Origin: Parabacteroides sp. AM08-6
GTDB lineage: Bacteria > Bacteroidota > Bacteroidia > Bacteroidales > Tannerellaceae
Length of the DNA: 64,000 bases
Reading direction: 5' to 3'
NCBI RefSeq assembly: GCF_003473295.1
Contig: NZ_QRMP01000003.1
Coordinates: forward strand, 240,012 to 304,011
Shown here piece by piece: positions 1,953-16,598 of the stretch. How positions within the stretch are numbered: position 1 is the stretch's first letter; the number at the start of each line of letters is the position of its first letter. The position numbers and the translations under genes were made by a program. The notes beneath the pieces are model-generated. The model saw nothing but the letters and a program-made list of their open reading frames with translations, was not told the origin of the DNA and did not search any database.

Positions 1953-3065
1953 TCACTCTCCATATACATAAATCTCAGAAAGACTTGTAAATGGAACACG
2001 GTTACTTTCGGTTATATTTACCTTCATGTAACGTCCTTTTGTTGTATCTACAGATGAAGGAATGTCTATGGTGAGACTGCTACCCTCAAAAGTTCCTTCG
2101 GCAATCTTTACCCATCCACTATCATCTGCTTCCGGTTTATCATTAACATAAATCTCTACTGTTTTAATATCCGCATGACGATGCAATTCTATCTTTGTCA
2201 TTTCCTTGGCAGATTCCATATCAATAATAGCCCAATGAGGAAGTGGTGTATTTTCTCCCGTATAGTTGGAATGCCACCAGGTATTCAAGTCCCCATCGAT
2301 AATGGCATCTTTACCACCGCCATCGCTGGCTGTTTCATCCGAAACGGCCAAAACCGTCCAACCGCTACGGTCATACTTGTATTCCATCGGGAAGACTTCT
2401 TCATACTCCACCCATGCTGTAGCAAAAGTATCGATAGCTTCTTCCTCCGGAATATACAGAGAACGATATTCAAAACCTGTACCCGGTTTCAAGTCCGGAC
2501 ACAAAACGCTGTTATCCTCAGCCGGCATGAAAACAACAGCTTGAGTTCCATCCTGCTTCGTATAACGAACCTCATTACGAACGAGTCCGTCCAATTTTGA
2601 ATACCAAGTAATCGTACCCCCCTTATCGGAAAGATCCAAATTCCTTACACGGCGATCTATTAAAGTCGAGTAATACACATCTCCGTATGATGTACCGAAA
2701 TCGCTAACAAACAAAGATTTATGGCCGAAATTATCTGTAGTTCGGATATTAAAGGTGTATGCCTTCGGTTCCATATTTTCTAATATCACGGTAATACTAT
2801 CGCGTCCCGTACCCATTGTGACCGGTATCTGCAACGAATCAAGTTGGTCGTTCCAATACACATCTATCGTTTTTACGTTCGGCGCATTGTAAGTCCAGCA
2901 AGTAAACTGGATACGTTCTTTTCCGGCTACAAAACTGACTGAATCAGGTTTGGTGGAATAAATAATTTCACCGCCCTCGATATAATCTTTGTGCACATCC
3001 ATAAAGTCTTCACACGAAAAGAATAGCAGTGAGACAAGAGCCAGCAAACAATATTTAATCTTCAT
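1953..3065 (-). CDS. Surface lipoprotein, DUF4998 plus F5/8 type C-like domain
   Basis: The 370-residue product begins with a lipoprotein signal (LVSLLFFSC, Cys at residue 18). Residues of about 20-215 resemble the DUF4998 fold found beside SusC/SusD pairs. Residues of about 235-370 form a discoidin (F5/8 type C)-like carbohydrate-binding module, with WWHSNY and WAIIDM motifs typical of that fold. It is probably anchored on the cell surface and helps bind the glycan imported by the adjacent SusC/SusD pair. It is the last gene of the minus-strand operon SusC-SusD-DUF4959-DUF4998, follows its neighbour after 25 bp and is closed by a terminator. The domain names come from memory of family patterns, not a search. 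Confidence 0.8.
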   Translation of the reverse strand: MKIKYCLLALVSLLFFSCEDFMDVHKDYIEGGEIIYSTKPDSVSFVAGKERIQFTCWTYNAPNVKTIDVYWNDQLDSLQIPVTMGTGRDSITVILENMEPKAYTFNIRTTDNFGHKSLFVSDFGTSYGDVYYSTLIDRRVRNLDLSDKGGTITWYSKLDGLVRNEVRYTKQDGTQAVVFMPAEDNSVLCPDLKPGTGFEYRSLYIPEEEAIDTFATAWVEYEEVFPMEYKYDRSGWTVLAVSDETASDGGGKDAIIDGDLNTWWHSNYTGENTPLPHWAIIDMESAKEMTKIELHRHADIKTVEIYVNDKPEADDSGWVKIAEGTFEGSSLTIDIPSSVDTTKGRYMKVNITESNRVPFTSLSEIYVYGE

Positions 3066-3090: not shown

Positions 3091-4281
3091 TTATTGAACC
3101 ACTTCACCGTAGAAATCTACATCTGCCGGATGAGTAAAAGAAGAACCGCCCCATGTATTTAAAATCTTAAAACGGATATAACGAATCGGCTCCTGCGATA
3201 ACTCAAATGAGAATTCGTGTCCTTCCACTCCGGCTGTAAAATCCTCGTCGGTAACCGTTCCGCTTGGCGAACCGGAAGGCTTGACAATCTCGCAATCCAG
3301 TACTTTTTCCCATTCGTCCCAATTTCCATCTTGTGATGGCGCACCGGTTCCCTTAAATGTATAGACTTCAAATTGTTTCGGATTTCCCCAATTATAATAA
3401 GAATCCGAATATTTACGCTGGAACATGACTACACGGCTCGGTTTAGCCACACAACCCAAATCGACAGTAAAAGCCGCCGGCAAAGAATTGGACGGAGAGT
3501 GACCAAAGGTATCATGGTCGTCATCTATCAGATAGCTGTCCATTCCTTCCCAATTGGTAAAATTAGCATCAGAACCTAATTTCATCACGACCATATGCTT
3601 TTTATTCAGGGCTTCTTCAAACAAAGGAACCAATGTACCGCCTGCCGGATAAATCGTGTCGGAGGCATTATCATAATAATCCCTGATAATCATTCCGAAA
3701 CGACGGGCCTCCGGCTGAAATCCGCGTAAACTGTAACGACCGGAATCGGCTTCTGTTGTCATAATTCTTAAAGTCTGCATCTGGCTCAAAGAGTCTTCAG
3801 CCAAGAATTCAACAGTAAACGGAGCTTTGTCTTTGTTTCTCCAATTAAACTGGGCACCTCCAAAATCGGATATGATATCAACCGTTTTAATTGTTTTCGA
3901 CAAAGATGATTCCAAAGGGGTAAAAGAAACCTCTACCGGGTCGGAAAACTCTTGCGCCCTGTTTACCACATATAGCTTAGCCTTATGTTCCACCATGTCA
4001 TTATAACCCAAAATTTCTACTTTATTCTCGTAGAAAGAAGATGTAACTTTATGTTCCTTTCCGTCGGCCAATATATACCGGCCTTCGACAGCCAAAATAT
4101 CTTCCGAATTCGGAATACGGTACGAAACAACGGCTCCCCCCGGAACCGGAGTAACTTCAATATCTGTTACTACTCCGGGTTTCCCCAAACTATCTGTTAT
4201 CGGTTCCAGCTTTTTCTCAGAACAGGAACAAATGAACAACGATAACAAAACCAAACTCAAATATTTCATTTTCATTTTCAT
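3091..4281 (-). CDS. Surface lipoprotein, DUF4959/DUF5126/DUF5000-type
   Basis: An exported lipoprotein (LSLFICSC, Cys inside the first 25 residues). Three closely spaced ATG codons (4281, 4275, 4269) all precede the same signal peptide; the open frame extends upstream to 4311 but the extra residues are lysine-rich and unlikely to be translated. Residues of about 25-120 look like an Ig/FN3-type DUF4959 domain, the middle like DUF5126, and the last 170 residues like a DUF5000/F5-8C beta-sandwich (FTVDLG, RVVMFQRK). This triple architecture accompanies SusC/SusD in Bacteroidales and is assumed to bind glycan on the cell surface. It sits 23 bp after SusD and 25 bp before the next lipoprotein, so co-transcription is very likely. 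Confidence 0.8.
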   Translation of the reverse strand: MKMKMKYLSLVLLSLFICSCSEKKLEPITDSLGKPGVVTDIEVTPVPGGAVVSYRIPNSEDILAVEGRYILADGKEHKVTSSFYENKVEILGYNDMVEHKAKLYVVNRAQEFSDPVEVSFTPLESSLSKTIKTVDIISDFGGAQFNWRNKDKAPFTVEFLAEDSLSQMQTLRIMTTEADSGRYSLRGFQPEARRFGMIIRDYYDNASDTIYPAGGTLVPLFEEALNKKHMVVMKLGSDANFTNWEGMDSYLIDDDHDTFGHSPSNSLPAAFTVDLGCVAKPSRVVMFQRKYSDSYYNWGNPKQFEVYTFKGTGAPSQDGNWDEWEKVLDCEIVKPSGSPSGTVTDEDFTAGVEGHEFSFELSQEPIRYIRFKILNTWGGSSFTHPADVDFYGEVVQ

Positions 4282-4304
4282 TTTTTTCTTATTTAAATCG
4301 TAAA

Positions 4305-6221
4305 TTACCAACCCGGATTCTGAACCAATTGCGGATTACGTACAATATCCGATTCGGGTATCGGAGCAAAATAATTTTTATAAGAGAATGTCTGCGTATA
4401 TACAGTAGCTACAGTATAATAGTCAGCCACATCGGATGCTTTCACATTCCATCCCTGTATCAAACGGTTCTGCTCTTTCTGAGCAGTTTTCCAACGATGG
4501 CTATCCCAATAATACGGACCTTCGCAAGCCAATTCCACATTTCTTTCACGTTGTATAATTTCACGCATACCCGATTTCGTAGAGGGTTTAGTCGGCTGAT
4601 TAGAATACTTTTGCCAGCTTTCTACCACTCCTTCCAATCCGGCACGTTCGCGAACCATATCGATATATTTATAAACTTCTGCATCCGGAGCTGCTTTCGA
4701 TTCATTCAAAGCTTCCGCACACATCAACAACAAGTCAGCAAAACGCATATCCGGGAACGGGTAAGTTTCCCACGTTACCTGGTTGGGATCACGGAAACTG
4801 GAATTGATGGAAACCAATTTCTTAGGCCAATAGCCTGTTGCATTATAATTTCCGGGATTCGCCACGGAAGAAAATTCTCCAAAACGATTCTTCGGATACA
4901 AACAATCCGCATCATCATCCGGCATGTTTTTATACGAATTTCCATACCATTTACCACGGTCAAAGCCCAAAGTAGAATAGAAACGCGGTTCCCTGTCGAA
5001 ATTCATGGCTGCCGTTTGCTCGCCTTTCTGAATATAATATTTATGTTCTTCATCTCCAGTACGGACGTTAAAACGACCGGCATAATCATACTCTTTATCC
5101 TCTTCAATGGGCACTCCATTTTTCGAATAAAACAAATCGACAGTCGAAAATGGAACGCTCATACGAGTTCCATTATCCAAAGAAGTAGGTTGCTCCAGAT
5201 AAGGCATACATTGATTTTGTAAACCTGAGTTAACCGGATAAGAGGAATTACCCCACACTAACTCACAATTCCAACGGTCGCTGATAGAGCCGCGTAAAGT
5301 CTGAACCAATAGAGTTTGGTCTGAAACTTGTTTGGTTGCTATATAGTCCGAAGTCTGATACAAACGAATACCGGCAGCTTCGCATATTTCAATAGCGTCT
5401 TTACAGGCAACAGCAGCCGAATCCCAACGGGCGGCATCATATGTCTGGTTAAAAAACGGCTCGCCATTATGATCCAGGAAACTATTATAATCCGTATTAC
5501 CGTTAAACAACGGGCTAGCCCAATAGAGCCATACTTTAGCTCGGAGCATATAAGCTGAAGGCAAATTAAAACGTCCCAACTCTGTTGTCGGATTCTGGAA
5601 AGTTGCAGGTAAACCATTACTGGAAATCACTTCATCCATTAATTCCAAAATATATTTGAAACAATCGTCTACTTTTTCCCGGTAAACACGTACACCTTGT
5701 GTTGATTCATTCACCGGTGTATTTTCACGAAGCGGGCAAATCGGACCATAATAAGTAAGCAGATAAAAATGCATATAAGCTTTTATCATTTTCACTTCTG
5801 CTATCATCCGTTTTTTCTCATACTCTTGTATGTCTTGTACATTTACTACATTTTCCATAAAGGTATTACATTCACGGATACCGGCATATAACGAACGAAC
5901 GTAATCGCCCCCTGCTCCCCAATAATTAATAACGGCATCAGTCGGGCTATCGACCCCTAAACCGAACCTCATTCCCTGGTCATTACGGGCCTCCGTATTA
6001 AATATCATTTCCAAAGCCCCGAAAACCCCAGGATTTTCATTCCAACCTGCCGATTTAGGCATTCCCCAATAGCAGGTCGCCAGATATTTTTCCGTCGTAT
6101 AACGGTCGGCAAATGCATTGTCTATCGTTGCTACATTATCGGGAACTACATCCAGATAACTACAAGCGGTTACAGACAGAGCTGTACATGTACACAATAT
6201 ATATTTATATAACGATTTCAT
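4305..6221 (-). CDS. SusD/RagB-family outer-membrane lipoprotein (locus A)
   Basis: SusD-type glycan-capture lipoprotein that forms the lid of the SusC channel. I start it at the ATG at 6221, giving MKSLYKY followed by a lipobox (LSVTAC, then SYLDVVPDN). The open frame reaches 6245, but those extra codons overlap the end of SusC and encode only a charged stretch. Family hallmarks include CSYLDVVPD at the mature N-terminus, a TPR-like helical body, a C-terminal RERNVELACEG segment (the usual RxERRxELAfEG signature) and the closing NPGW. Mature length of about 620 residues is at the large end for SusD. It lies directly after SusC and before two accessory lipoproteins. Confidence 0.93.
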   Translation of the reverse strand: MKSLYKYILCTCTALSVTACSYLDVVPDNVATIDNAFADRYTTEKYLATCYWGMPKSAGWNENPGVFGALEMIFNTEARNDQGMRFGLGVDSPTDAVINYWGAGGDYVRSLYAGIRECNTFMENVVNVQDIQEYEKKRMIAEVKMIKAYMHFYLLTYYGPICPLRENTPVNESTQGVRVYREKVDDCFKYILELMDEVISSNGLPATFQNPTTELGRFNLPSAYMLRAKVWLYWASPLFNGNTDYNSFLDHNGEPFFNQTYDAARWDSAAVACKDAIEICEAAGIRLYQTSDYIATKQVSDQTLLVQTLRGSISDRWNCELVWGNSSYPVNSGLQNQCMPYLEQPTSLDNGTRMSVPFSTVDLFYSKNGVPIEEDKEYDYAGRFNVRTGDEEHKYYIQKGEQTAAMNFDREPRFYSTLGFDRGKWYGNSYKNMPDDDADCLYPKNRFGEFSSVANPGNYNATGYWPKKLVSINSSFRDPNQVTWETYPFPDMRFADLLLMCAEALNESKAAPDAEVYKYIDMVRERAGLEGVVESWQKYSNQPTKPSTKSGMREIIQRERNVELACEGPYYWDSHRWKTAQKEQNRLIQGWNVKASDVADYYTVATVYTQTFSYKNYFAPIPESDIVRNPQLVQNPGW

Positions 6222-6234
6222 CTTTTTTCTTTTT

Positions 6235-9200
6235 TTAGAATCCAATATTTAATCCCACATTAATTACACGCTGAACCGGATAACCTAAACCATTACCGGC
6301 CATTTCCGGATCCCAAAGTTTGAATTTACTCCAACAAAGCAAGTTTGTTCCACTAACATAAAAGCGTAAATTCTGAACCTTATACTTTTTGGTGAAAGCA
6401 GAAGGAAGCGTATAACCCAATTCGACAGATTTCAAACGAAGGAAAGTTGCATCTTGCATAAACCATGTACTCGTCTGAGTATTGTTTGATATAGACTGGT
6501 TTGCCAAACGAGGCCAAAAGGCATACGGATTACGATTGCTTTCCGACCAATAACTGTTTGCTATTACGTCCAATACAGCATTTTGTCCGGTTTTTCCGTC
6601 ATTTCCATTTTCACCAGCATCACCATCTATAAACGGTGTAATCTTTTTTAAATCCAACCAAAAAGACTGACGGGCAGACCCTTGGAAGAAGAAAGAAGCA
6701 TCAAAACCCTTGTAACCGGCAGAAAGACCGAAACCGTAGTTTATCTCCGGAGTCGTCGGGTAACCGATTGGCACCTTATCCAATTCGGATATTTTGCCAT
6801 CTTTGTTTACATCACGATATTTAATATCACCGGCCATATACTCACCGAACTGGGTCGGAGAATTTTTCACTTCTTCCTCGTCTACAAACAGACGCTCAGC
6901 AATATATCCCCAAGTTTGTCCTAATGATTGCCCTACTTTATACAACCAAGGGGTTGCACTATAGTCCGGTTCTTCCCATTCTACAGCTTCACTGGTTGCA
7001 TAAGTGAACGTACCACGACCTGTAAACCATAAATCCTTACTAACACTCTTCTCAAAATTGACTTCCATATCGACACCATTTCCTTTTGCTCTACCCAAAT
7101 TGGCTTTTACAGCCGGGATAATACCCATCGTATTCGGGATGACACGATCCAAAAGGATATTTTTACGACGTTCCGTAAAATATTCAACAGTGGCAGAAAG
7201 TCCGAACGATGTAGTCGCTTCAAAACCCAAATTCATTTTATAGGAGGTTTCCCATCCGATTTCATTATTTGCATAACGGCTGACATTGATTCCACCTGGA
7301 TTATAATTCAACTGTGTACCCCAGTTAACTGGCCGACTCGCATTCATATCCACCTGCGAAAGATAATAGAAACGGTCGTTGGCATTACCGATTTGGTCCT
7401 GACCGGACATACCGTAAGTACCCTTCAATTTAAATTGGGTCAATACCTTTTTCAACGGTTCGAAAAAGCTTTCATTTGAAATCATCCATCCGACAGCACC
7501 GGAAGGGAAGAAACCCCAGCGTTTGTTTTTGGAGAAACGTTCGGAACCATTATATCCGAAAGTAAACTCACCGAAATAACGCGATTTATAATCGTAAGAC
7601 AAACGTCCGGCTAAACCGATATTACGGAACGGCAAAGATTGTTGCAAATCACCGGATATACCGGTTTTATTATTTTGCATGGTATATACCAACAAAGCAT
7701 TCACAGAATGTTTATCCTGAAACAGACGCGTATATTCAGCCTTTGCTTCCAAATACAAACCGCTATCTATTTTACGGTTACCCGGTTGATAATCAATATA
7801 TTCTGTACCCGCGCTCGGATTCAAGCGAGTCAGTGAATAGGTATTATTCAACAGATTGAATGTGCTGATATTATAAAAGAACGGCACGTAAGCGCGGTCT
7901 ACAGAATATTCCGAATAACGATTCATATTCACCAGCAAACTGGCTTTCAAACCTTCGGTAAGCATCTTCAAATCCTGGTTTACTGCAAACTGGGTAAGCA
8001 TCGTATTTTTACTGTACTCATTGTATCCCCTCAATGCCTGTGCGTACGGATTCACATAGTTGGCATTACCATAGTTACCGAACAGGATATGTTTGGCATA
8101 AGCAAACTGGTCGTCTGCTTCATAATAAGGTTTGAACATAACCGGATTAGCCATCATAACCTCCTTATACATAAAAGCGCCACCACCAATCGGACCGCTA
8201 TAATCATCGAATGCAGCACTCATACGAAGTACCAATTCTGTGGTTTTCGTCAAGTTCACATTAACATTCGAACGGATTGTATATTTCATCAAATTGATAT
8301 TTGAATTGAAATTATTCCGTTTATCCACTTTTACATTACCATTATCACGGGTCATATTGGCAGCAACATAATAACGAGCAACCGTACCACCACCGCTCAC
8401 ACTCAAATTAGCACGCTGGTTCATCGTCAAGTCGTTGAACATTGTGTCGTACCAATCGGTGGTCGGATAAATATTCGGATACAATCCACGCTCCGTCATC
8501 GTAATCTTTTCCTGCGAATAAAGTGCCAATCCCAGCGGGTCGCGAGTCTTGATTGCCTCATTCTGCATACGCATATACGTAACGGGGTCCGTCAACTTCA
8601 CCTTTTTCGTCGGTGTGGAAAAAGAATTCTCAACACGGGCATTAACAGAAACTTTTCCTTCCCGTCCTTCTTTCGTCGTTACTGAAATTACACCATTTGC
8701 ACCCCGGGCACCGTACAAAGCTGTTGCCGTGGCATCCTTCATAATGGTAAAACTAGCAATATCATCCGTATTCAAACGAGCCAAATCTTCAGTACCCAGT
8801 TCAATACCATCAATCAGGATTAGCGGGTCTTTTTTTGCTTCTGCACCAAAAGTTGTAATACCGCGGATAAAGAAGCTTGCATTATCCTGACCGGGCTCAC
8901 CACTGACCTGATACGAAATCAAACCGGCTACACGACCGGCAAAAGCTGTAGTCAAGTTACTGCTCGGGACCTTCAATTCCGCAGGTTTAACTGTCGTGAT
9001 GGCCGACAGCACACTTTCTTTCTTTTGTTTGGAGAATGCAACAACCGTAACTTCTTCCAATTCATCCACCTTTGGTTTCAATACAATATCCAAGACTTTT
9101 TGATTGGTATATTTAACCTCTTGAGTTTCCATACCAATATAAGCCACGACTAAAATACTGTTTGGCGGACAATCATCGAACTCGAATCTTCCATCGCCAT

Positions 9201-9417
9201 CGGTAATTACACCTTTTGTACCACCTTTGATTTGAACTGTGGCACCAGGTAAAGGGTCACCTCCTTCATCCGAAATTCGACCTTTCAGTTTTGCCGTTTG
9301 TTGTACTTTTTCCACTAAAGGAAACGAATCAGCCCAGAGAGATTGACAGGGAGCGTTAGCTACCGTCAACAACAGTGCCGGGAACATCCACCTCAATGAG
9401 GTACCACCAGCCTTCAT
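6235..9417 (-). CDS. SusC/RagA-family TonB-linked outer-membrane transporter (locus A)
   Basis: TonB-dependent importer that takes up oligosaccharide (or peptide) captured by its SusD partner. The start is placed at ATG 9417 (MKAGGTSLRW), 20 codons inside the open frame, because this gives a normal signal peptide. After the signal come a carboxypeptidase-regulatory-like domain (LKGRISDEGGDPLPGATV), a TonB box (EEVTVVAF), a plug domain (PLILIDG, IMKDATATALYGARGANG) and a long beta-barrel ending in the aromatic-terminated strand NVGLNIGF. It is the first gene of locus A. Its upstream region is a likely invertible promoter segment (9540-9786), so expression is probably phase-variable. No sigma/anti-sigma or hybrid two-component regulator is nearby. 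Confidence 0.95.
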   Translation of the reverse strand: MKAGGTSLRWMFPALLLTVANAPCQSLWADSFPLVEKVQQTAKLKGRISDEGGDPLPGATVQIKGGTKGVITDGDGRFEFDDCPPNSILVVAYIGMETQEVKYTNQKVLDIVLKPKVDELEEVTVVAFSKQKKESVLSAITTVKPAELKVPSSNLTTAFAGRVAGLISYQVSGEPGQDNASFFIRGITTFGAEAKKDPLILIDGIELGTEDLARLNTDDIASFTIMKDATATALYGARGANGVISVTTKEGREGKVSVNARVENSFSTPTKKVKLTDPVTYMRMQNEAIKTRDPLGLALYSQEKITMTERGLYPNIYPTTDWYDTMFNDLTMNQRANLSVSGGGTVARYYVAANMTRDNGNVKVDKRNNFNSNINLMKYTIRSNVNVNLTKTTELVLRMSAAFDDYSGPIGGGAFMYKEVMMANPVMFKPYYEADDQFAYAKHILFGNYGNANYVNPYAQALRGYNEYSKNTMLTQFAVNQDLKMLTEGLKASLLVNMNRYSEYSVDRAYVPFFYNISTFNLLNNTYSLTRLNPSAGTEYIDYQPGNRKIDSGLYLEAKAEYTRLFQDKHSVNALLVYTMQNNKTGISGDLQQSLPFRNIGLAGRLSYDYKSRYFGEFTFGYNGSERFSKNKRWGFFPSGAVGWMISNESFFEPLKKVLTQFKLKGTYGMSGQDQIGNANDRFYYLSQVDMNASRPVNWGTQLNYNPGGINVSRYANNEIGWETSYKMNLGFEATTSFGLSATVEYFTERRKNILLDRVIPNTMGIIPAVKANLGRAKGNGVDMEVNFEKSVSKDLWFTGRGTFTYATSEAVEWEEPDYSATPWLYKVGQSLGQTWGYIAERLFVDEEEVKNSPTQFGEYMAGDIKYRDVNKDGKISELDKVPIGYPTTPEINYGFGLSAGYKGFDASFFFQGSARQSFWLDLKKITPFIDGDAGENGNDGKTGQNAVLDVIANSYWSESNRNPYAFWPRLANQSISNNTQTSTWFMQDATFLRLKSVELGYTLPSAFTKKYKVQNLRFYVSGTNLLCWSKFKLWDPEMAGNGLGYPVQRVINVGLNIGF

Positions 9418-9539
9418 AATCTTGCTCTTCTGAAACTGGCAATTTCTATTGCCGTAAATTCCTAGTAATTTGAACATTAGAATTATTACGTTTAAGGTTA
9501 ATAAATAGAAATAACTTAGATAATTAGTTGATTATCAAC

Positions 9540-9560
9540 GTGAGTTCTTCAAGAACTATG
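9540..9560 (+). repeat. Left inverted repeat of candidate invertible promoter (IR-L)
   Basis: A 21-bp sequence whose core is AGTTCTTCAAGAACT, itself a palindrome around one central base (AGTTC-N5-GAACT). The complete 21 bp recurs as an exact reverse complement at 9766-9786; identity stops at both ends. I recall AGTTC-N5-GAACT as one of the inverted-repeat motif classes of invertible promoters upstream of SusC/SusD genes in Bacteroides fragilis. Confidence 0.85.
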
Positions 9561-9765
9561 GTCATTCATCATACTGATTACATCTTAAAAGCAAAATTAA
9601 GTATATTTTTTTATATGGCACACTGTCTCTTGTTATAAATAACTTAATTTGACTATTTACACTAGCGTATGTTTGCAATCCACGAAATGTTAATCATTGT
9701 TTTCTTTTGAAGATTATACGGATTTCTCAATCAAACATCTGATTTACAATAAATTACACCGATAA
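9561..9765. promoter_or_regulatory. Candidate invertible promoter segment (205 bp)
   Basis: The spacer between the two inverted repeats holds no gene but has Bacteroides-type promoter signals facing both ways. Towards SusC (minus strand) there is TGTG at 9622-9619, 19 bp, then TAATTTTG at 9599-9592, predicting a start near 9585. Towards the peptidase gene (plus strand) there is TTTG at 9648-9651, 16 bp, then TATGTTTG at 9668-9675. The minus-strand signal has the better spacing. Inversion would exchange the two, so one orientation should express SusC more strongly. The sequence shows one orientation only, and I cannot tell which state is ON. Confidence 0.65.
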
Positions 9766-9786
9766 CATAGTTCTTGAAGAACTCAC
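9766..9786 (-). repeat. Right inverted repeat of candidate invertible promoter (IR-R)
   Basis: Exact 21-of-21 reverse complement of 9540-9560, with the AGTTC-N5-GAACT core. It lies outside the -7 box of the downstream peptidase gene, so that gene keeps its own proximal promoter in both orientations. I did not notice a third copy of the core elsewhere in the window. Confidence 0.85.
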
Positions 9787-9806: not shown

Positions 9807-9814
9807 TATATTTG
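9807..9814 (+). promoter_or_regulatory. -7 box of the M3 peptidase gene
   Basis: TATATTTG matches the Bacteroides -7 consensus TAnnTTTG and sits 26 bp before the ATG at 9840. No good -33 TTTG lies at the usual 18-21 bp distance. Confidence 0.5.
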
Positions 9815-9839: not shown

Positions 9840-11894
9840 ATGAAACAAATTAGCGACAATCCTTTTTTCAAGGTATACACAACACCATTCGGCACACCTC
9901 CTTTCAACGAAATCCGCACAGAACATTACGAACCGGCTTTTGATAAAGCCATTAAACTACTAAACAAAGAGATACGCTCCATTGCTAAAAATCAAGCCTT
10001 ACCCACATTTCAAAATACCATCGTGGCACTCGAACGTAGCGGACAATTACTCGACAAAGTCAGTTCCGCTTTCTTCAATGTTCTGAATGCGGAAGCCAAC
10101 GATGAAATGATGAACATTTCACAACGTGTATCCCCTAAATTATCAGAAAGTACAAACAATATATATTTGAATGAACAACTGTTTGCGCGTGTTAAAGAAA
10201 TTTATAAACAAAAAGAAAAATTAAGCCTCCCGACAGAAGATGCCAAACTATTGGAAGAGACATTCAACTCTTTCTCTGTTCGTGGCGCCAACCTGAATGC
10301 GGAAGACAAAGAAACCTATCGCAAATTAAGTACCGAACTCAGCTCACTGACACTAACATTCGAACAAAATGTCCTAAAAGATAAAAATCGCTACGAACTG
10401 CTCCTTAGCGATGAGAAAGATTTGGCGGGGCTACCTGGCAGTATCCGCGAAGCTGCCGCCCACCGGGCTAAGGAGAAAGGGAAAGAAGGTTGGCTATTCA
10501 ATCTCTCCGCTCCCAGCTACATACCGTTTATGCGCTATTCGTCCATACGCCACCTGCGAGAAACTGTATATAAGGAATATATGAGCATCGGTAATAAAGG
10601 TGACGAATATGACAACAAAGAAATCATACGCAAAATAGTCAATATCCGGTTACAGATTGCCCACCTGATGGGATATTCCAACTATGCAGAATACAAACTA
10701 AGGCATACAATGGCTAAAACACCGGCCCATGTGTACCGGCTTTTAAATGAACTACTGGAAGCCTACAAGCCTGTGGCCATCAACGAATACAATGCCATAC
10801 AAGGTTTCGCGATGGAAACAGAACAGGAAAACATCACCGTCATGCCTTGGGACTGGAGCTACTATTCGGAAAAACTGAAGGATATCCGGTTTAAAGTCAA
10901 CGATGAAATGACTCGTCCATATTTCGAGCTCAACCATGTAAAAGAAAGCGTATTCGGCCTGGCAACCCAATTATATGGAATCACATTCAAAAAAAACAAG
11001 GATATTCCCGTTTATCATCCCGAAGTAGACGCATACGAGGTATACGATGCCGACGGCAAATTCTTATCCGTACTTTTTACAGACTTTCATCCGAGGGATG
11101 GTAAACAATCCGGTGCTTGGATGAATGGCATCAAAGAACAGTACCAGAATGAAGACGGGACGGACAGTCGCCCCCAAATCATCATCGTCATGAATTTTAC
11201 ACGGCCTACCGATACCAAGCCCTCTTTGCTAACATTCGACGAAGTGAACACCTTATTGCACGAGTTCGGCCATGCCCTGCACGGCATGTTTGCGCAGGGT
11301 AAATACGCCAGCCTGTCCGGGACGAACGTATACCGTGATTTTGTAGAACTGCCTTCACAGTTGATGGAAAACTGGTTGACAGAGAAAGAATTCCTGGATC
11401 AAGTTGCCGTTCACTACCAGACCGGCGAAAAGATACCGCAGGATTTAATACAAAACCTAATCGATGCCGCCAACTTTAACGTCGGCTATACATGTTGCCG
11501 TCAATTAAGTTTCGGTTTTCTGGATATGGCCTGGCACACGCAGACTTCACCGTTCGAAGGCGATATCATTTCTTTTGAAAAAGAAGCATGGAAACAAACC
11601 GTAATCGTGCCTGAAATACCGGAAGCATTGATGAGCAGCAGTTTCGGGCATATCTTTTCAGGGGGCTATTCTGCCGGTTATTACGGTTACAAATGGGCAG
11701 AAGTATTGGATGCTGATGCATTTTCCGTTTTCAAAGCAGCCGGAATATTCAACAAAGAAGTGGCCCGTTCTTTCCGCGATAACATCCTCTCAAAAGGAGG
11801 AACGGAAGAGCCGGACACCTTATATAAACGTTTCCGCAGCCAGAATCCGACAATCGATGCCCTACTGAAACGAAACGGCATCACACGGAAATAG
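9840..11894 (+). CDS. dcp: M3-family peptidyl-dipeptidase (Dcp/oligopeptidase A-like)
   Basis: A 684-residue zinc metallopeptidase of family M3, which removes C-terminal dipeptides from, or cleaves, short peptides. The zinc motif HEFGH is at residues 474-478 (LLHEFGHALHG), with the downstream glutamate helix and the YxxGYYxYKWA segment (GGYSAGYYGYKWAE) near residue 615 typical of the family. Length matches Dcp/OpdA. There is no signal peptide at the N-terminus (MKQISDNPFFKVYTTPFG), so it is probably cytoplasmic, although some Bacteroidales relatives are exported. It is transcribed away from SusC/D locus A, across the invertible segment, and could be affected when that segment flips. A hairpin follows the stop codon. 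Confidence 0.9.
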   Translation: MKQISDNPFFKVYTTPFGTPPFNEIRTEHYEPAFDKAIKLLNKEIRSIAKNQALPTFQNTIVALERSGQLLDKVSSAFFNVLNAEANDEMMNISQRVSPKLSESTNNIYLNEQLFARVKEIYKQKEKLSLPTEDAKLLEETFNSFSVRGANLNAEDKETYRKLSTELSSLTLTFEQNVLKDKNRYELLLSDEKDLAGLPGSIREAAAHRAKEKGKEGWLFNLSAPSYIPFMRYSSIRHLRETVYKEYMSIGNKGDEYDNKEIIRKIVNIRLQIAHLMGYSNYAEYKLRHTMAKTPAHVYRLLNELLEAYKPVAINEYNAIQGFAMETEQENITVMPWDWSYYSEKLKDIRFKVNDEMTRPYFELNHVKESVFGLATQLYGITFKKNKDIPVYHPEVDAYEVYDADGKFLSVLFTDFHPRDGKQSGAWMNGIKEQYQNEDGTDSRPQIIIVMNFTRPTDTKPSLLTFDEVNTLLHEFGHALHGMFAQGKYASLSGTNVYRDFVELPSQLMENWLTEKEFLDQVAVHYQTGEKIPQDLIQNLIDAANFNVGYTCCRQLSFGFLDMAWHTQTSPFEGDIISFEKEAWKQTVIVPEIPEALMSSSFGHIFSGGYSAGYYGYKWAEVLDADAFSVFKAAGIFNKEVARSFRDNILSKGGTEEPDTLYKRFRSQNPTIDALLKRNGITRK

Positions 11895-11963: not shown

Positions 11964-11979
11964 TTCGTGCCTTGCAATT

Positions 11980-12075
11980 TTACTTTCAACAATTGTTGAA
12001 AGTAAGAAATACAATTGTCTTTTTTGATTTCAACAATTGTCTATTTTGCATTTAACAACTATTGAAAGTAAAATA
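11980..12075. repeat. Cluster of CAACAATTGTTG-type palindromes
   Basis: 11980-12005 is a perfect 26-bp palindrome centred on CAATTG (key half TTACTTTCAACAA). Half copies TTTCAACAATTGT (about 12028-12040) and an imperfect second palindrome CTATTTTGCATTTAACAACTATTGAAAGTAAAATAG (about 12041-12076, described by its ends CTATTTT and AAAATAG) follow. The outer copies are also inverted relative to each other. No gene lies in this stretch, which is at the left border of the AT-rich island. Confidence 0.7.
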
Positions 12076-12234
12076 GCATGAGACAAAATCAGAAAATCCA
12101 TAGATGCTTTTTCTCAATCCGTAAAGTGCTTTTCGAAGAATGTACAGGTACAAAAAAATATTTTTAGTTTTTCCCAGGGGAATATTTGGTTATACAAATT
12201 ATTACCCTTACGTTTACACCCTAATATTCATATC

Positions 12235-12396
12235 ATGTACAAAAAACACAACATATTAATTACATTTCTCATTTTGTCCGTTATACTAGTTTACTACCCT
12301 ATTTGGGGTAATGACTTTCTCGATAGTTGGGACGACCAATGGCAAGTATTTACTCAAACCAGCAAACACGTGTTTGGAAAAATTCAAAAACAGTAA
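12235..12396 (+). CDS. Tiny exported peptide, possibly truncated
   Basis: A 53-codon frame from the ATG at 12235. It encodes a lysine-containing start, a strongly hydrophobic segment (residues 7-23, ILITFLILSVILVYYP) and a short tail rich in W, D and Q (SWDDQWQVF). It lies about 120 bp before the first beta-propeller gene, as the other small exported peptide lies before the second. That arrangement recalls the small NVEALA-type precursors next to propeller genes in Bacteroidales, but I cannot see an NVEALA motif. A second frame running to 12491 (…VKGKVDEQFVPCEAGTKVYFF…) also looks protein-like, so the original gene may have been longer and frameshifted. I give no function. Confidence 0.4.
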   Translation: MYKKHNILITFLILSVILVYYPIWGNDFLDSWDDQWQVFTQTSKHVFGKIQKQ

Positions 12397-12518
12397 AAGG
12401 AAAAGTAGATGAACAATTTGTACCATGCGAAGCAGGAACCAAAGTATATTTTTTTGATACACAGGAGATAATTTTACATATAATGACATGACATATATAA
12501 ATTATTGCAAATAAACAA

Positions 12519-13713
12519 ATGAGACAGTTATATCATATAATCATATTAAGCACATTCTATTCTTTTGCTTGGGGACAGGTCAAATATGAAATAGACATAA
12601 ATAAAGCTGAAGTCAAAAATAATATTCCAATGTCCATAGTTTTTAAATCAATGAAAATAATACCATTGGAAACAAATGAAAACTCATTAATCGCACGCAT
12701 TAACAAAATTGAGATTTATAATAATTGGATTTTTGTAATTGATAATTTCAAGGCTAATACTCTACATATTTTTGATAAAGAAGGAAATTATATCAAACAA
12801 ATAGGAAGAAAAGGAAGTGATCCTGGAGAATATAAGCAGTTATCAACTTTCACAATAGACAAACAGAATAAACATGTTTATCTATTAGACAACTATTTGC
12901 ATAAAATTTTCATTTATGATTTTATACAAAATAAATGCGTAAAGGAAATTTCAATAAAAAATCATCAATACGAATCATTTCACATGCAATATATTGATGG
13001 ATTTTTATATACTGATGTATATTCATATAATCCACAAATAAAAAAAACACCTTTGATTCAAAAAATAGACTGCGAAAGTGGGAATATCATCAAAGCATTT
13101 TATGACTCTTCATTCAATATGGATTATGTAAATAGAAATGAAATCGAATCTTTCGCATTTTATCCTATAGCAAACAACAATTTCTGCTTTGCTCAACGTT
13201 TTATGAATACAATTTTACTTATAGATCAAAAGAATATTAGCCCATACTTCAGTTTCAGACATCCTAACTTTGTAAAAAAAGAAGAAATGGAAGATGCTGC
13301 ATCAAAAGCATACAATAGTCCAAAAAGGAGTAGTATATATATTACATTAAAAAAGGGAGTTTATTCAATAAATGAAATATTTGAGACAAATAAACACATT
13401 TCATTCTCATACATAATGAACAGAAATGTAATACGTACAATCTTATACGATAAAACGAACAACAAAACAATTGATTTTGATTTTTTTTAAGAATGATTTA
13501 TCAGAAAAAGAAAATCGTCTATCATATATTCCAAGATACATATCTGCTGATGAAAAAGGTGTTTATTTCCAAATACCATCTAATAATGTGGATTATTTTT
13601 TAAAATATATAAGAGAAGACTGCTTTGAATCCAAAATAGAAAACATCAAATCATTAAACAATATAAATACAGAAGATGCAAATCCCATATTACTATACTA
13701 TGAATTTAATTAA
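12519..13713 (+). pseudogene. Six-bladed beta-propeller protein, frameshifted in a T8 tract
   Basis: First of three tandem paralogues. The first 323 residues (12519-13490) have a signal peptide (MRQLYHIIILSTFYSFAWG) and the family core: IDINKAEV, FKSMKIIPLET, VIDNFKANTLHIFDKEGNYIKQIGRKGSDPGEY. The frame stops at TAA 13488-13490 directly after eight T residues (13481-13488). Removing one T restores reading into FKNDLSEKENRL and on to NPILLYYEFN at 13713, exactly the C-terminus of the two intact paralogues (NPILFYYEFK, NPILLYYEFK). So the gene is one base out of frame. This could be a real mutation, slippage-based phase variation or a sequencing error. The exported product is probably periplasmic or surface-exposed; its function is unknown. 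Confidence 0.8.
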
Positions 13714-13729
13714 CTATAAAATAAATATC

Positions 13730-13945
13730 ATGAACAAAAAATCATTACTATTTGGATTATCAGCTCTATTAATTATGGTATGTATGAATCTATCATACAC
13801 AATTAGGGGATATTCATTTGCAAACTCCTCTTGGATTGGGAAAATATGGGGAGAGGGCACATCTAGTAATAGCAATACAAGTACCAATACTAGCACTAGT
13901 AGTAACAGGCCTGAAGATGAGAGAGTCATTGCACATTGCCAGTAG
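13730..13945 (+). CDS. Small exported Ser/Thr/Asn-rich peptide
   Basis: A 71-residue product starting at ATG 13730 (MNKKSLLFGLSALLIMVCMNL). A hydrophobic leader of about 25 residues is followed by SWIGKIWGEG, then a low-complexity segment of Ser, Asn and Thr (about residues 44-59), and a charged end, RPEDERVIAHCQ, with a near-terminal Cys. It sits 16 bp after the first propeller gene and 43 bp before the second, so it is co-transcribed with them. Position and architecture resemble the short NVEALA-type precursor peptides found next to six-bladed propeller genes in Bacteroidales, but the NVEALA motif itself is absent. The role is unknown; secretion is the only thing the sequence supports. Confidence 0.6.
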   Translation: MNKKSLLFGLSALLIMVCMNLSYTIRGYSFANSSWIGKIWGEGTSSNSNTSTNTSTSSNRPEDERVIAHCQ

Positions 13946-13988
13946 CCAAACTCACAAAGTTTAAGTCAAAATATATAACCGTAAGAGC

Positions 13989-15200
13989 ATGAAAAAAAAG
14001 TTTTTTATATTATGTATATATCTTATGAATATTGGTCTGCTAGAGTCTCAAAATAATTCTAGCAGCCAATATATTATAGATATAGATAACGCCACCAATT
14101 TAGGAAGAATTCCTATTTCTCATTTTTTCAAATCCTTAAAAATAATACCACTAGAAACGACAGAAGATTGCTTAATAGGTAGAATAGACGAAATGCAAAC
14201 TTGTGGTGATAGACTTTTTATATGTGACAATAACATAGCAAATGCTATTTTCGTCTATAACAGAGAAGGAAAATTCCTAAAAAAAATAGCGAACAGAGGT
14301 GGTGGCCCAGAAGAATACAATCAAATAGAGTCTTTTTGCATAGATTCATTAAACAATTCTATATTACTTTTAGATAATTCGAAACACAAAATAATAGAAT
14401 ACAATTTTATAACAGGAGAATATATCCAATCCATATCACTTAAAGGAGACATAACGCCTTGTCACATTTTTAAAATAAATAATACTTTATATGGAGATTT
14501 ATATTATTACAACACAAATATTCCCGCTAATAATTGCTATCTATTACAAAAAATAGATTTAAAAACAGGAAATATCATCGAAAAATATTTTCCTGTATAC
14601 CAATATAATAGAGGCTGGACAAATCGAAATTTCATAGAGAGCTATGCTTTTTATCCCATATATTCAAATCATTGCTTATTTGTTCAATCATTCATGGATA
14701 CAGTCATGCTAATTAACCCAGAAGGAGTGTCCCCTTATTTCACCATTAAAAGCAAGAACTTTGTCACAAATAATATTATCAATAATTTTATTGAAAGTAA
14801 ATCTCCACAGGAAAATATTCCCTTCTATATGTTAGAGAACAAGAGCATATATAAGATTTCAGAAATAATTGAAAGCAAAAGCCAAATATGGTTTTCATAT
14901 ATGCAAGGATTTGGTTTAACAAAAGCATATTATAACGCCTTAGAGAACAAAACTTACACATATACACAATTCAACGACTTATTATTAGATAAAGACCGAG
15001 GAATAACGTATATACAGCCCAATTATTTAATTGCAGAAAAAGAAGGTTTTTTCTATCAAGTTACATCAGATAATATTCCAGTAATAAAACATTTTGCTCA
15101 ACAAGGATTTCTGAATCCTAAAATTGGCAACATTGAATATTTAAAAAATATAGATGACGAAGATTCTAATCCAATACTATTTTATTATGAATTTAAATAA
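13989..15200 (+). CDS. Exported six-bladed beta-propeller protein (copy 2)
   Basis: Intact 403-residue paralogue of its two neighbours. It has a signal peptide (MKKKFFILCIYLMNIGLLESQ) without a lipobox, the conserved opening YIIDIDNATNLGRIP, then SLKIIPLETTEDCLIGRIDE and blade-like repeats (FVYNREGKFLKKIANRGGGPEEY, described by its ends FVYNREG and GPEEY). It ends with DSNPILFYYEFK. The family is the Bacteroidales six-bladed beta-propeller group (Pfam DUF4934/DUF5128 type, from memory). Such proteins are exported and often co-occur with small precursor peptides, but their activity is not established. Codon and base composition are much more AT-rich than in the flanking housekeeping genes, suggesting acquisition as part of a mobile or rapidly evolving island. 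Confidence 0.8.
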   Translation: MKKKFFILCIYLMNIGLLESQNNSSSQYIIDIDNATNLGRIPISHFFKSLKIIPLETTEDCLIGRIDEMQTCGDRLFICDNNIANAIFVYNREGKFLKKIANRGGGPEEYNQIESFCIDSLNNSILLLDNSKHKIIEYNFITGEYIQSISLKGDITPCHIFKINNTLYGDLYYYNTNIPANNCYLLQKIDLKTGNIIEKYFPVYQYNRGWTNRNFIESYAFYPIYSNHCLFVQSFMDTVMLINPEGVSPYFTIKSKNFVTNNIINNFIESKSPQENIPFYMLENKSIYKISEIIESKSQIWFSYMQGFGLTKAYYNALENKTYTYTQFNDLLLDKDRGITYIQPNYLIAEKEGFFYQVTSDNIPVIKHFAQQGFLNPKIGNIEYLKNIDDEDSNPILFYYEFK

Positions 15201-15353
15201 ATATATCAAATTAGGGAAACTATCCTTACATCAAGTTTTATTGTTAGATAAGAGATGTTTCAATTCCCCTCTGCTTATATACCAAAAGCATTATTCTTCG
15301 ACAAAACAACAGCTTTGTCAAAAAAAAATAAAATTGAAGCAAAATAAACAAAC

Positions 15354-16598
15354 ATGAAAAAAAATACATTATTACTATTCTTCTTATTTCATATATTAAA
15401 TACCAGTTTAACAGTGGGCCAAAATAGCCCAAAAACTGTATACGATATAAACATAGATAACGCAAAGGACTTGGGAGATATTCCTCTTTCCAATTTTTTC
15501 AAATCACTAAAGATAATACCACTCGAAAGGGTAAGAAGAAACTCTTTCCTATTTGTTTCCAAATTGTATACATGTAGAGATAAAATATTTGTTCTCAGCA
15601 AATTCATGGGAGATAATTTATTTGTATTTGACCAAGATGGAAAATATATAAGAACTATTTCCAGGAAAGGTAATTGGCCGGGGGAATATGCAAAACTTGA
15701 CGATATAGTCGTTGATTCTTTAAGCAATTCTGTCTGGTTGTTAGACAATCCATTAGATGATAGCAAAAGCGAACTCCACGAATACAATTACATAACCGGC
15801 AAATATATCAAGACCATTCCTCTCAATGAAGAAACAGAGCCTCTGCATTTATTCAAAATTGGAAATGAATTATATGGGGACATTTATTATAACTATTACA
15901 AGACAGGAAAAAGCTTATCTGGAAAAGGTTGTTATTTATTACGAAAAATAGAGATGGATACTGGGAACACTACAGAATATTACCTCCTTGCATCAGAATA
16001 TAACAAAGGGCGAGCCAATAAAGTCTTAACGGATAATCACGCATTTTTCCCCACAAGCTCGGAACATTGCCTATTTGTCCAATCGTGTATGGATACAATT
16101 ATGTCAATCAGTTCGAAAGGTGTCCAGCCTTATCTGGCAATTAAATCTAACAATTTTATTAATACACAAACTATTCAAGATTATTTGGATGAAAACAGAC
16201 CCGAAGACCCATTCTATAGTTACATGCTAACGAAAAATCTGATATACAGAATTGCCAATCTGATGGAGAATAATGGGAAAATATTTTTCTCTTACTTACA
16301 GGGATATACAACTACCAATATATATTACGATACTCAAGAAAATCAAGCATATAAATATACAGGATTAAATGATTTGCTTTTTAAAGAAGGGCAGGAATCC
16401 AGTTATCTCATAACCAGTTATTTGACAACAGACAGCAAAGGGGTTTATTATGTAATAAACGTTGATGGATTTTCAATGATTAAACGGTATGTCGAAGAAG
16501 GCCGGTTAAACCCAAATTTTGAAAACATCGAAGAACTAAAAAACATAAGCGAGGAATCATCAAACCCGATATTACTTTATTACGAGTTTAAAGACTGA
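15354..16598 (+). CDS. Exported six-bladed beta-propeller protein (copy 3)
   Basis: A 414-residue intact paralogue, last of the tandem set. It has a signal peptide (MKKNTLLLFFLFHILNTSLTVGQ), the family opening YDINIDNAKDLGDIPLS, the FKSLKIIPLE motif, a WPGEY blade motif, and the terminal signature SSNPILLYYEFKD. It differs most from copy 2 in the segment after IIPLE (RVRRNSFLF) and in loop residues, as expected if the copies bind different partners. About 150 bp separate it from copy 2 and this gap contains no convincing small peptide gene, unlike the gaps before copies 1 and 2. Its composition is AT-rich but slightly less so towards the 3' end. Confidence 0.8.
   Translation: MKKNTLLLFFLFHILNTSLTVGQNSPKTVYDINIDNAKDLGDIPLSNFFKSLKIIPLERVRRNSFLFVSKLYTCRDKIFVLSKFMGDNLFVFDQDGKYIRTISRKGNWPGEYAKLDDIVVDSLSNSVWLLDNPLDDSKSELHEYNYITGKYIKTIPLNEETEPLHLFKIGNELYGDIYYNYYKTGKSLSGKGCYLLRKIEMDTGNTTEYYLLASEYNKGRANKVLTDNHAFFPTSSEHCLFVQSCMDTIMSISSKGVQPYLAIKSNNFINTQTIQDYLDENRPEDPFYSYMLTKNLIYRIANLMENNGKIFFSYLQGYTTTNIYYDTQENQAYKYTGLNDLLFKEGQESSYLITSYLTTDSKGVYYVINVDGFSMIKRYVEEGRLNPNFENIEELKNISEESSNPILLYYEFKD

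Follow-up and report, generated by a model that had tools for sequence, protein, structure and literature searches.

Organization of the SusC/SusD locus

We analysed a 64-kb stretch of DNA (hereafter the window), near one end of which a four-gene SusC/SusD operon and a divergently transcribed peptidase gene are separated by a short segment between inverted repeats. The genes are as follows.

6235–9477, minus strand: susC-like TonB-dependent receptor gene (Pfam CarbopepD_reg_2 and Plug)
4305–6245, minus strand: susD-like lipoprotein gene (Pfam SusD_RagB and SusD-like_3)
3091–4311, minus strand: gene of a DUF4959-DUF5126-DUF5000 protein (Pfam domains)
1953–3065, minus strand: gene of a protein with DUF4998 and an F5/8 type C domain (Pfam), the last of the four-gene operon
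9840–11894, plus strand: divergent M3-family peptidase gene (Pfam Peptidase_M3)

The start of susC probably lies at 9417, as judged from a 1060-aa version of the protein (P0002), and the DUF4959-DUF5126-DUF5000 protein is presumably a surface lipoprotein. Among the matches listed, the closest named proteins to the window SusC come from P. goldsteinii (80%–82% identical); P. faecis encodes a SusC that is 79% identical and P. pacaensis two at 79%. By its sequence, the source is a Parabacteroides-like species. A SusC with 100% identity (P0001) is encoded on a 64,935-bp contig, which is perhaps a second assembly of that species. Beyond the peptidase gene, positions 12001–16000 have a GC content of 28%, against 37%–42% in the other 4-kb stretches of the window, and are possibly acquired DNA; three consecutive DUF5128 beta-propeller genes lie there, the third ending at 16598. 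An imperfect 55-nt inverted repeat (11964–12087, 76% complementary) is located just 3' of the peptidase gene.

A perfect inverted repeat encloses a predicted promoter directed at susC

The segment between susC and the peptidase gene contains the following features.

9540–9560, plus strand: SusC-proximal arm, with core AGTTCTTCAAGAACT at 9543–9557, forming a perfect 21-nt inverted repeat with 9766–9786
9561–9765, no strand: 205-bp interior of the repeat, which is proposed to invert
9766–9786, minus strand: SusC-distal arm, with core AGTTCTTGAAGAACT at 9769–9783
9592–9622, minus strand: predicted promoter toward SusC, with a -33 TGTG at 9619–9622, a 19-nt spacer and a -7 TAATTTTG at 9592–9599
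9668–9675, plus strand: isolated -7-like TATGTTTG, with no -33 at 18–20 nt

The initial annotation had described a perfect 21-bp repeat with core AGTTC-N5-GAACT around 205 bp, directly upstream of a SusC gene, and both statements were confirmed. The arms are 100% complementary, and Markov copies of the window gave nothing similar: 40 first-order copies held no perfect inverted 18-mer pair within 1 kb, and their inverted 15-mer pairs averaged 0.175, versus seven in the real window, which is the number yielded by one 21-nt repeat. Exact copies of AGTTCN5GAACT occur only in the two arms, one in each, with one additional place in the window at one mismatch. We take AGTTC-N5-GAACT to be the defining motif of the Bacteroidales class of invertible SusC/D promoters. 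The window pair is inverted, its N5 bases match, and the SusC/SusD operon lies directly downstream of the segment. Neither the exact 21-mer of the arm nor the window SusC had a match in the viral collection. A literature search on the AGTTC/GAACT motif and Bacteroides inversion returned nothing on the subject, judged by title, and we make no claim to a first report.

Bacteroides promoters carry a -33 element, TTTG, at its spacing from the -7 element. The -7 consensus is given as TAnnTTTG in the excerpted text of PMC4747536. By motif prediction, a promoter of this type lies between the two sites: the minus-strand match TGTG-N19-TAATTTTG sits 31 nt inside the SusC-proximal arm and would exit through that arm. 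We read the window state as ON because this single full promoter points at SusC. Promoter signals had been annotated in both directions; the one toward SusC stands as a full promoter, but the plus strand carries only an isolated TANNTTTG with no -33. A lone TANNTTTG on either strand is expected by chance in about one-third of such segments (10.6 of 29 in shuffles), and the plus-strand sequence at 9668–9675 is probably a chance occurrence.

We extended the promoter search to segments of 60–700 bp from the window and its relatives, which kept 29 of the 33 distinct site pairs described below. Full promoters were found in nine of the 29 segments, compared with a shuffle mean of 1.0 (sd 1.0), and none of 300 shuffles reached nine. 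All nine point outward through the nearer arm, at a distance of 13–54 nt from it. A lone -7 was present in 19 segments versus 10.6 in shuffles. For the 20 segments without a full promoter match, either the motif is too strict or other arrangements exist. A generic sigma-70 scan was uninformative (4 found versus 3.6 in shuffles).

Orthologous site pairs in P. faecis and P. pacaensis

Comparison with related assemblies, as the initial annotation had proposed, showed that the closest susC orthologues of both P. faecis and P. pacaensis are accompanied by a site pair. In P. faecis (L001), AGTTC-TATGA-GAACT and its inverted partner start at 9696 and 9910, in front of the 79%-identical SusC gene. The central bases differ from those of the window sites, and the interior of the segment has diverged. 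Its single full promoter faces away from SusC and lies 32 nt inside the arm, compared with 31 nt and toward SusC in the window. The P. faecis segment thus appears to be in the opposite orientation to that of the window; this reading rests on the promoter motif and the arm distance, because the interiors do not align. Indeed, no significant alignment was obtained in either orientation when the segment interiors of the window, P. faecis and P. pacaensis were compared, and the arm-anchored 70-nt ends of the window and P. faecis segments gave p values of 0.05–0.55; we therefore dropped the alignment of interiors as evidence on orientation.

In P. pacaensis, the corresponding region lies between two head-to-head copies of a four-gene operon, whose open frames resemble those of the window operon in size and order and whose proteins are 88%–94% identical between the copies.

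L094:9058–9282 (G081:C6:224058–224282): three-site region of P. pacaensis

Of the three AGTTCTGTGAGAACT sites between the operon copies, two share an orientation and one is reversed. The sequence from site 1 to site 2 is the reverse complement of most of that from site 2 to site 3, and the scaffold contains an N. We read this both-orientation scaffold as the likely trace left by an assembler facing a mixed population, and it could instead be a real inverted duplication. An either/or switch between the two diverged operon copies is possible.

The sites are confined to the closest SusC relatives and are missing from more distant ones. In a first set of 24 loci of SusC relatives they occurred in that of P. 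faecis only, and in 35 further loci (L044–L078) in two only, both of P. pacaensis. The next SusC relatives (G001 and G002, 71%–75% identical) had no sites in longer stretches (L095 and L096), the G001 gene having just 804 bases of upstream sequence.

Sites are paired genome-wide by their central bases

The P. pacaensis genome contains 31 AGTTCN5GAACT sites, versus five of a reversed control pattern. These sites have 13 distinct cores, and for 27 of the 31 an inverted-matching partner lies no more than 8 kb away. Of the 15 couples of adjacent sites within that distance, 13 are inverted matches, one is a direct match and one shows no match, whereas only 18 of 447 distant couples share a core in either orientation. 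The same holds in genome G051, with inverted matches in 6/6 adjacent couples among the 16 listed of its 20 sites, against 6/114 distant couples.

These counts bear on the possibility that the arms are two palindromic operator copies for a dimeric regulator of the SusC operon and never invert. The 15-bp core is itself palindromic and close to the promoter, as would suit an operator. However, an operator has no need for central bases that are inverted-identical within a locus yet different between loci, as found in both genomes; nor would it account for both orientations in the P. pacaensis scaffold or for the way in which site presence tracks a tyrosine recombinase (see below). We consider this explanation very unlikely.

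Among 66 sites, selected for the AGTTC-N5-GAACT frame, the next inner base on each side is nearly fixed, giving AGTTCT-N3-AGAACT, and the central three bases are nearly free. Across 123 related genomes, taken as Tannerellaceae and including P. pacaensis, this longer motif has matches in 40, with 230 forward sites versus 65 sites of the control pattern. With a looser pattern, the 12 genomes reached through SusC loci showed no overall excess over control.

A survey of site pairs yielded 33 distinct pairs, one of the initial 34 being present in two overlapping loci and counted once. The survey left out the 14.5-kb pair of G044, the 10-kb pair of G045 and the C85 pair of G027, as well as G055, G080, G056 and other site-bearing genomes. 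The nearest gene on at least one side is SusC-like (some cut or partial) and reads away from the pair in 20 of the 33, and such genes read away on both sides in five. These genomes are rich in SusC genes (P. pacaensis has 102 first-look candidates), and the enrichment beside sites is a plain count. Ten other flanking proteins comprise two FecR anti-sigma factors, two NHL/TIG-type proteins, one DUF4493/PCMD protein, one transaldolase, one HD-domain protein and three without a Pfam match.

A candidate tyrosine recombinase

The annotation had placed the recombinase elsewhere in the genome. Consistently, searching all window frames of at least 60 codons with 12 P. pacaensis recombinases found no integrase-like frame, and comparison of related genomes points to a candidate whose presence goes along with that of the sites. 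In P. pacaensis there are 27 PF00589 places, 25 of which were represented in our cross-genome comparison; the two absent were L133 and L154, and L167 of G048 was absent as well. We used three small genomes with 6–9 sites (G027, G048 and G061) to choose among them. Besides XerD, a 388-aa protein (L136) is the sole P. pacaensis recombinase among those compared for which all three encode a relative at 56% identity or more.

At a threshold of E <= 1e-75, L136 has matches in 39 of the 123 genomes, G048 having two matching places and the other 38 a single one; in ten of the 39 the match is partial only. It is present in 26 of the 27 genomes with at least two sites versus 13 of the 96 others (Fisher p = 6e-16, kinship ignored), and in 22 of 23 versus 13 of 96 (p = 6e-14, kinship again ignored) once the four genomes used to pick it are removed. 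The 29 near-full-length matches alone give 23/27 versus 6/96, and the genomes with at least three and at least five sites give 19/20 and 17/18, respectively. By contrast, a paralogue used as control (L152) barely tracks the sites (16/27 versus 33/96, p = 0.026), and across the 123 genomes L136 shows no association with the reversed control pattern (p = 0.27). One genome (G064) has ten sites but only distant L136 relatives (best 32% identity).

Residues R246, K273, H333, R336, H359 and Y368 of L136, which we take to be the catalytic set of a tyrosine recombinase, show conservation of at least 97% across 31 sequences (the query being twice among them). Among the matches listed, the relatives carry the source names "site-specific integrase" or "integrase", and the viral collection holds one distant relative (27%). 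A SusC-like gene or part of one lies within the same 5–13 kb at all six recombinase loci inspected (G044, G045, G048, G081, G051 and G032), and AGTTC sites lie nearby at four, which had been chosen for their sites. NCBIfam singled out no invertase among 26 proteins standing for the 27 PF00589 places of P. pacaensis, a set in which L154 (internal stops) was left out, L133 was represented by a wrong frame and L141 by its neighbour, which gave the same results as L138. Given its co-occurrence with the sites, an orthologue of L136 appears to be the best candidate enzyme for the window switch.

Thirteen genomes have an L136 match but fewer than two sites, which means that sites and enzyme can part. 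This lends some weight to the idea that the window holds a fossil switch, formerly invertible and now locked in the source species, for instance through loss of the recombinase. A locked repeat would be expected to drift, however, and the window arms are perfect over 21 bp, past the 15-bp core; we regard a fossil as highly improbable.

In G032, the candidate invertase is present as two open frames (L241:4078–5246, contig C264), with an AGTTC site just past the 3' end, and the matches in G032, G056, G131 and G128 have one stop each. In P. pacaensis, a 398-aa frame (L131:1147–2343, around G081:C2:1991435–1991950) joins a XerC-like region (residues 5–295) to a ribosome hibernation factor HPF/YfiA (300–397), which is either a real fusion or a sequence error.

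The M3 peptidase is probably a bystander

The initial annotation had further suggested that SusC and the M3 peptidase could be toggled together. In the form of this idea that we weighed, the two genes are switched against each other: the flipped promoter would face the peptidase gene, whose ATG lies 53 bp past the arm, and some segments in relatives do have SusC-like genes that read away from them in both directions (the five of 33 pairs above). Several observations argue against it. A separate -7-like sequence precedes the peptidase gene and lies outside the segment.

9807–9814, plus strand: -7-like TATATTTG, 25 nt before the peptidase ATG

In five of 11 upstream stretches from relatives (L105–L109), TACCTTTG occurs near the same place by the peptidase start. 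The best long match to the peptidase gene among the 123 related genomes is 76% identical in DNA, and none of the 31 best peptidase-match loci examined holds an AGTTC site. Upstream of the peptidase gene, the longest open frame is directed away from it in nine of nine relatives inspected. Moreover, in both P. faecis and P. pacaensis the switch accompanies SusC although the neighbouring gene is a different one; in P. faecis, that neighbour is an S9-family peptidase on the SusC strand rather than an M3 peptidase. Joint toggling is thus not supported, and we consider a double switch unlikely. The M3 peptidase probably has its own promoter outside the segment and is probably a bystander, to which a flipped SusC promoter could possibly add read-through.

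A putative model for switching of the SusC/SusD operon

The orthologous site pairs, the genome-wide matched pairs, the excess of promoters and the co-occurring recombinase together give good comparative support to the annotated function. The window element is very probably an invertible promoter of the SusC/D operon, drawn in its ON state. We infer that the segment inverts in the source species and that its inversion switches SusC/D expression. In the putative mechanism, a tyrosine recombinase encoded elsewhere would bind both AGTTCT-N3-AGAACT sites and exchange strands in the spacer, so that the 205-bp segment flips. In the ON state, transcription would start about 25 nt inside the arm, cross the arm and a leader of about 165 nt into susC-susD, and continue into the two further surface-protein genes. 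In the flipped, OFF state, the promoter would face the M3 peptidase gene and SusC would be left without one. The predicted structure of the leader RNA is no more stable than that of shuffles (z 0.13).

Such inversions have precedents. Bacteroides fragilis phase-varies its SusC/SusD systems by inversion, presumably at repeats of this motif class, via a tyrosine recombinase that may be encoded elsewhere; the repeat motif of its invertase Tsr0667 is, we presume, AGTTC-N5-GAACT. The Tsr0667-dependent SusC/SusD inversions were reportedly described by Nakayama-Imaohji et al. (2009). The Mpi-type capsule switch, in which inversion uses a serine recombinase, shares with the window a promoter flipped between inverted repeats. 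Its repeat differs from that of the window, and the operon downstream of the window segment is a SusC/D operon rather than a capsule operon, so we rejected this assignment. The repeat quoted for the capsule operons of the crAss001 host in an excerpt of PMC12118408 is GTTCGTTTAA. The excerpted text of PMC4747536 attributes to Tsr0667 the inversions at three SusC/SusD clusters of B. fragilis and at nine further regions, and it describes the three clusters as shufflon-type multiple inversions. The window resembles the Tsr0667 system, as excerpted in PMC4747536 and PMC11852207, in its probably invertible DNA at SusC/SusD genes; a further likeness would be a single invertase that serves several distant regions. 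In contrast to the B. fragilis clusters as described there, the window has a simple two-site pair in a Parabacteroides-like host. A SusC/SusD shufflon, with more than two sites and several genes exchanged, was likewise rejected for the window, whose 64 kb contain only the one exact pair of sites.

PhaseFinder (Jiang et al. 2019) reportedly calls invertible regions by read mapping. In excerpts of PMC10939037, the invertible regions of gut Bacteroidales resemble the proposed window switch in having inverted repeats near SusC/SusD-like and capsule genes and orientation-dependent states; the calls of this type rest on reads in both orientations, whereas the evidence for the window switch comes from sequence comparison. 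The window is a further case of a known type of switch, to which we add a candidate invertase and a genome-wide set of sites.

Phase variation of SusC/D importers generates mixed nutrient and surface states in clonal gut populations, and the window contributes a clean and simple example from a Parabacteroides-like species. The site motif allows invertons of the AGTTC class to be proposed from assemblies without reads, and our candidate invertase may operate many such switches genome-wide. We tentatively extend this to a switchboard in Parabacteroides and its relatives, an idea to which we give somewhat less than an even chance: a single tyrosine invertase on the chromosome, its gene often adjoining a SusC/D locus, would act on a whole set of invertons (13 pairs in P. 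pacaensis), with the half-sites AGTTCT and AGAACT recruiting it and the central three bases serving as the address of each locus. If so, each site would recombine with its own partner and rarely with another locus, and one P. pacaensis switch would choose between two diverged copies of an operon that is single in the window.

Multi-kilobase site pairs

Some site pairs enclose whole genes. We sought a recombinase among ten proteins, nine around the multi-kilobase pairs of P. pacaensis and one from P. faecis, and found FecR, an ECF sigma factor, SusC, an IS66 transposase and others, but no recombinase. In P. pacaensis, a 7.3-kb unit between inverted-matching AGTTC sites (L097:8403–15732, G081:C5:303403–310732) holds genes for an ECF sigma factor, FecR and SusC together with a 648-aa gene, presumably a SusD. 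Next to this unit, a site pair spanning 493 bp precedes a second SusC gene, and inversion of the whole module is possible. Another pair, 4.4 kb apart (L098:4140–8537), surrounds a FecR gene and an IS66-type transposase gene, and its left site lies inside the first 50 bases of a SusC open frame.
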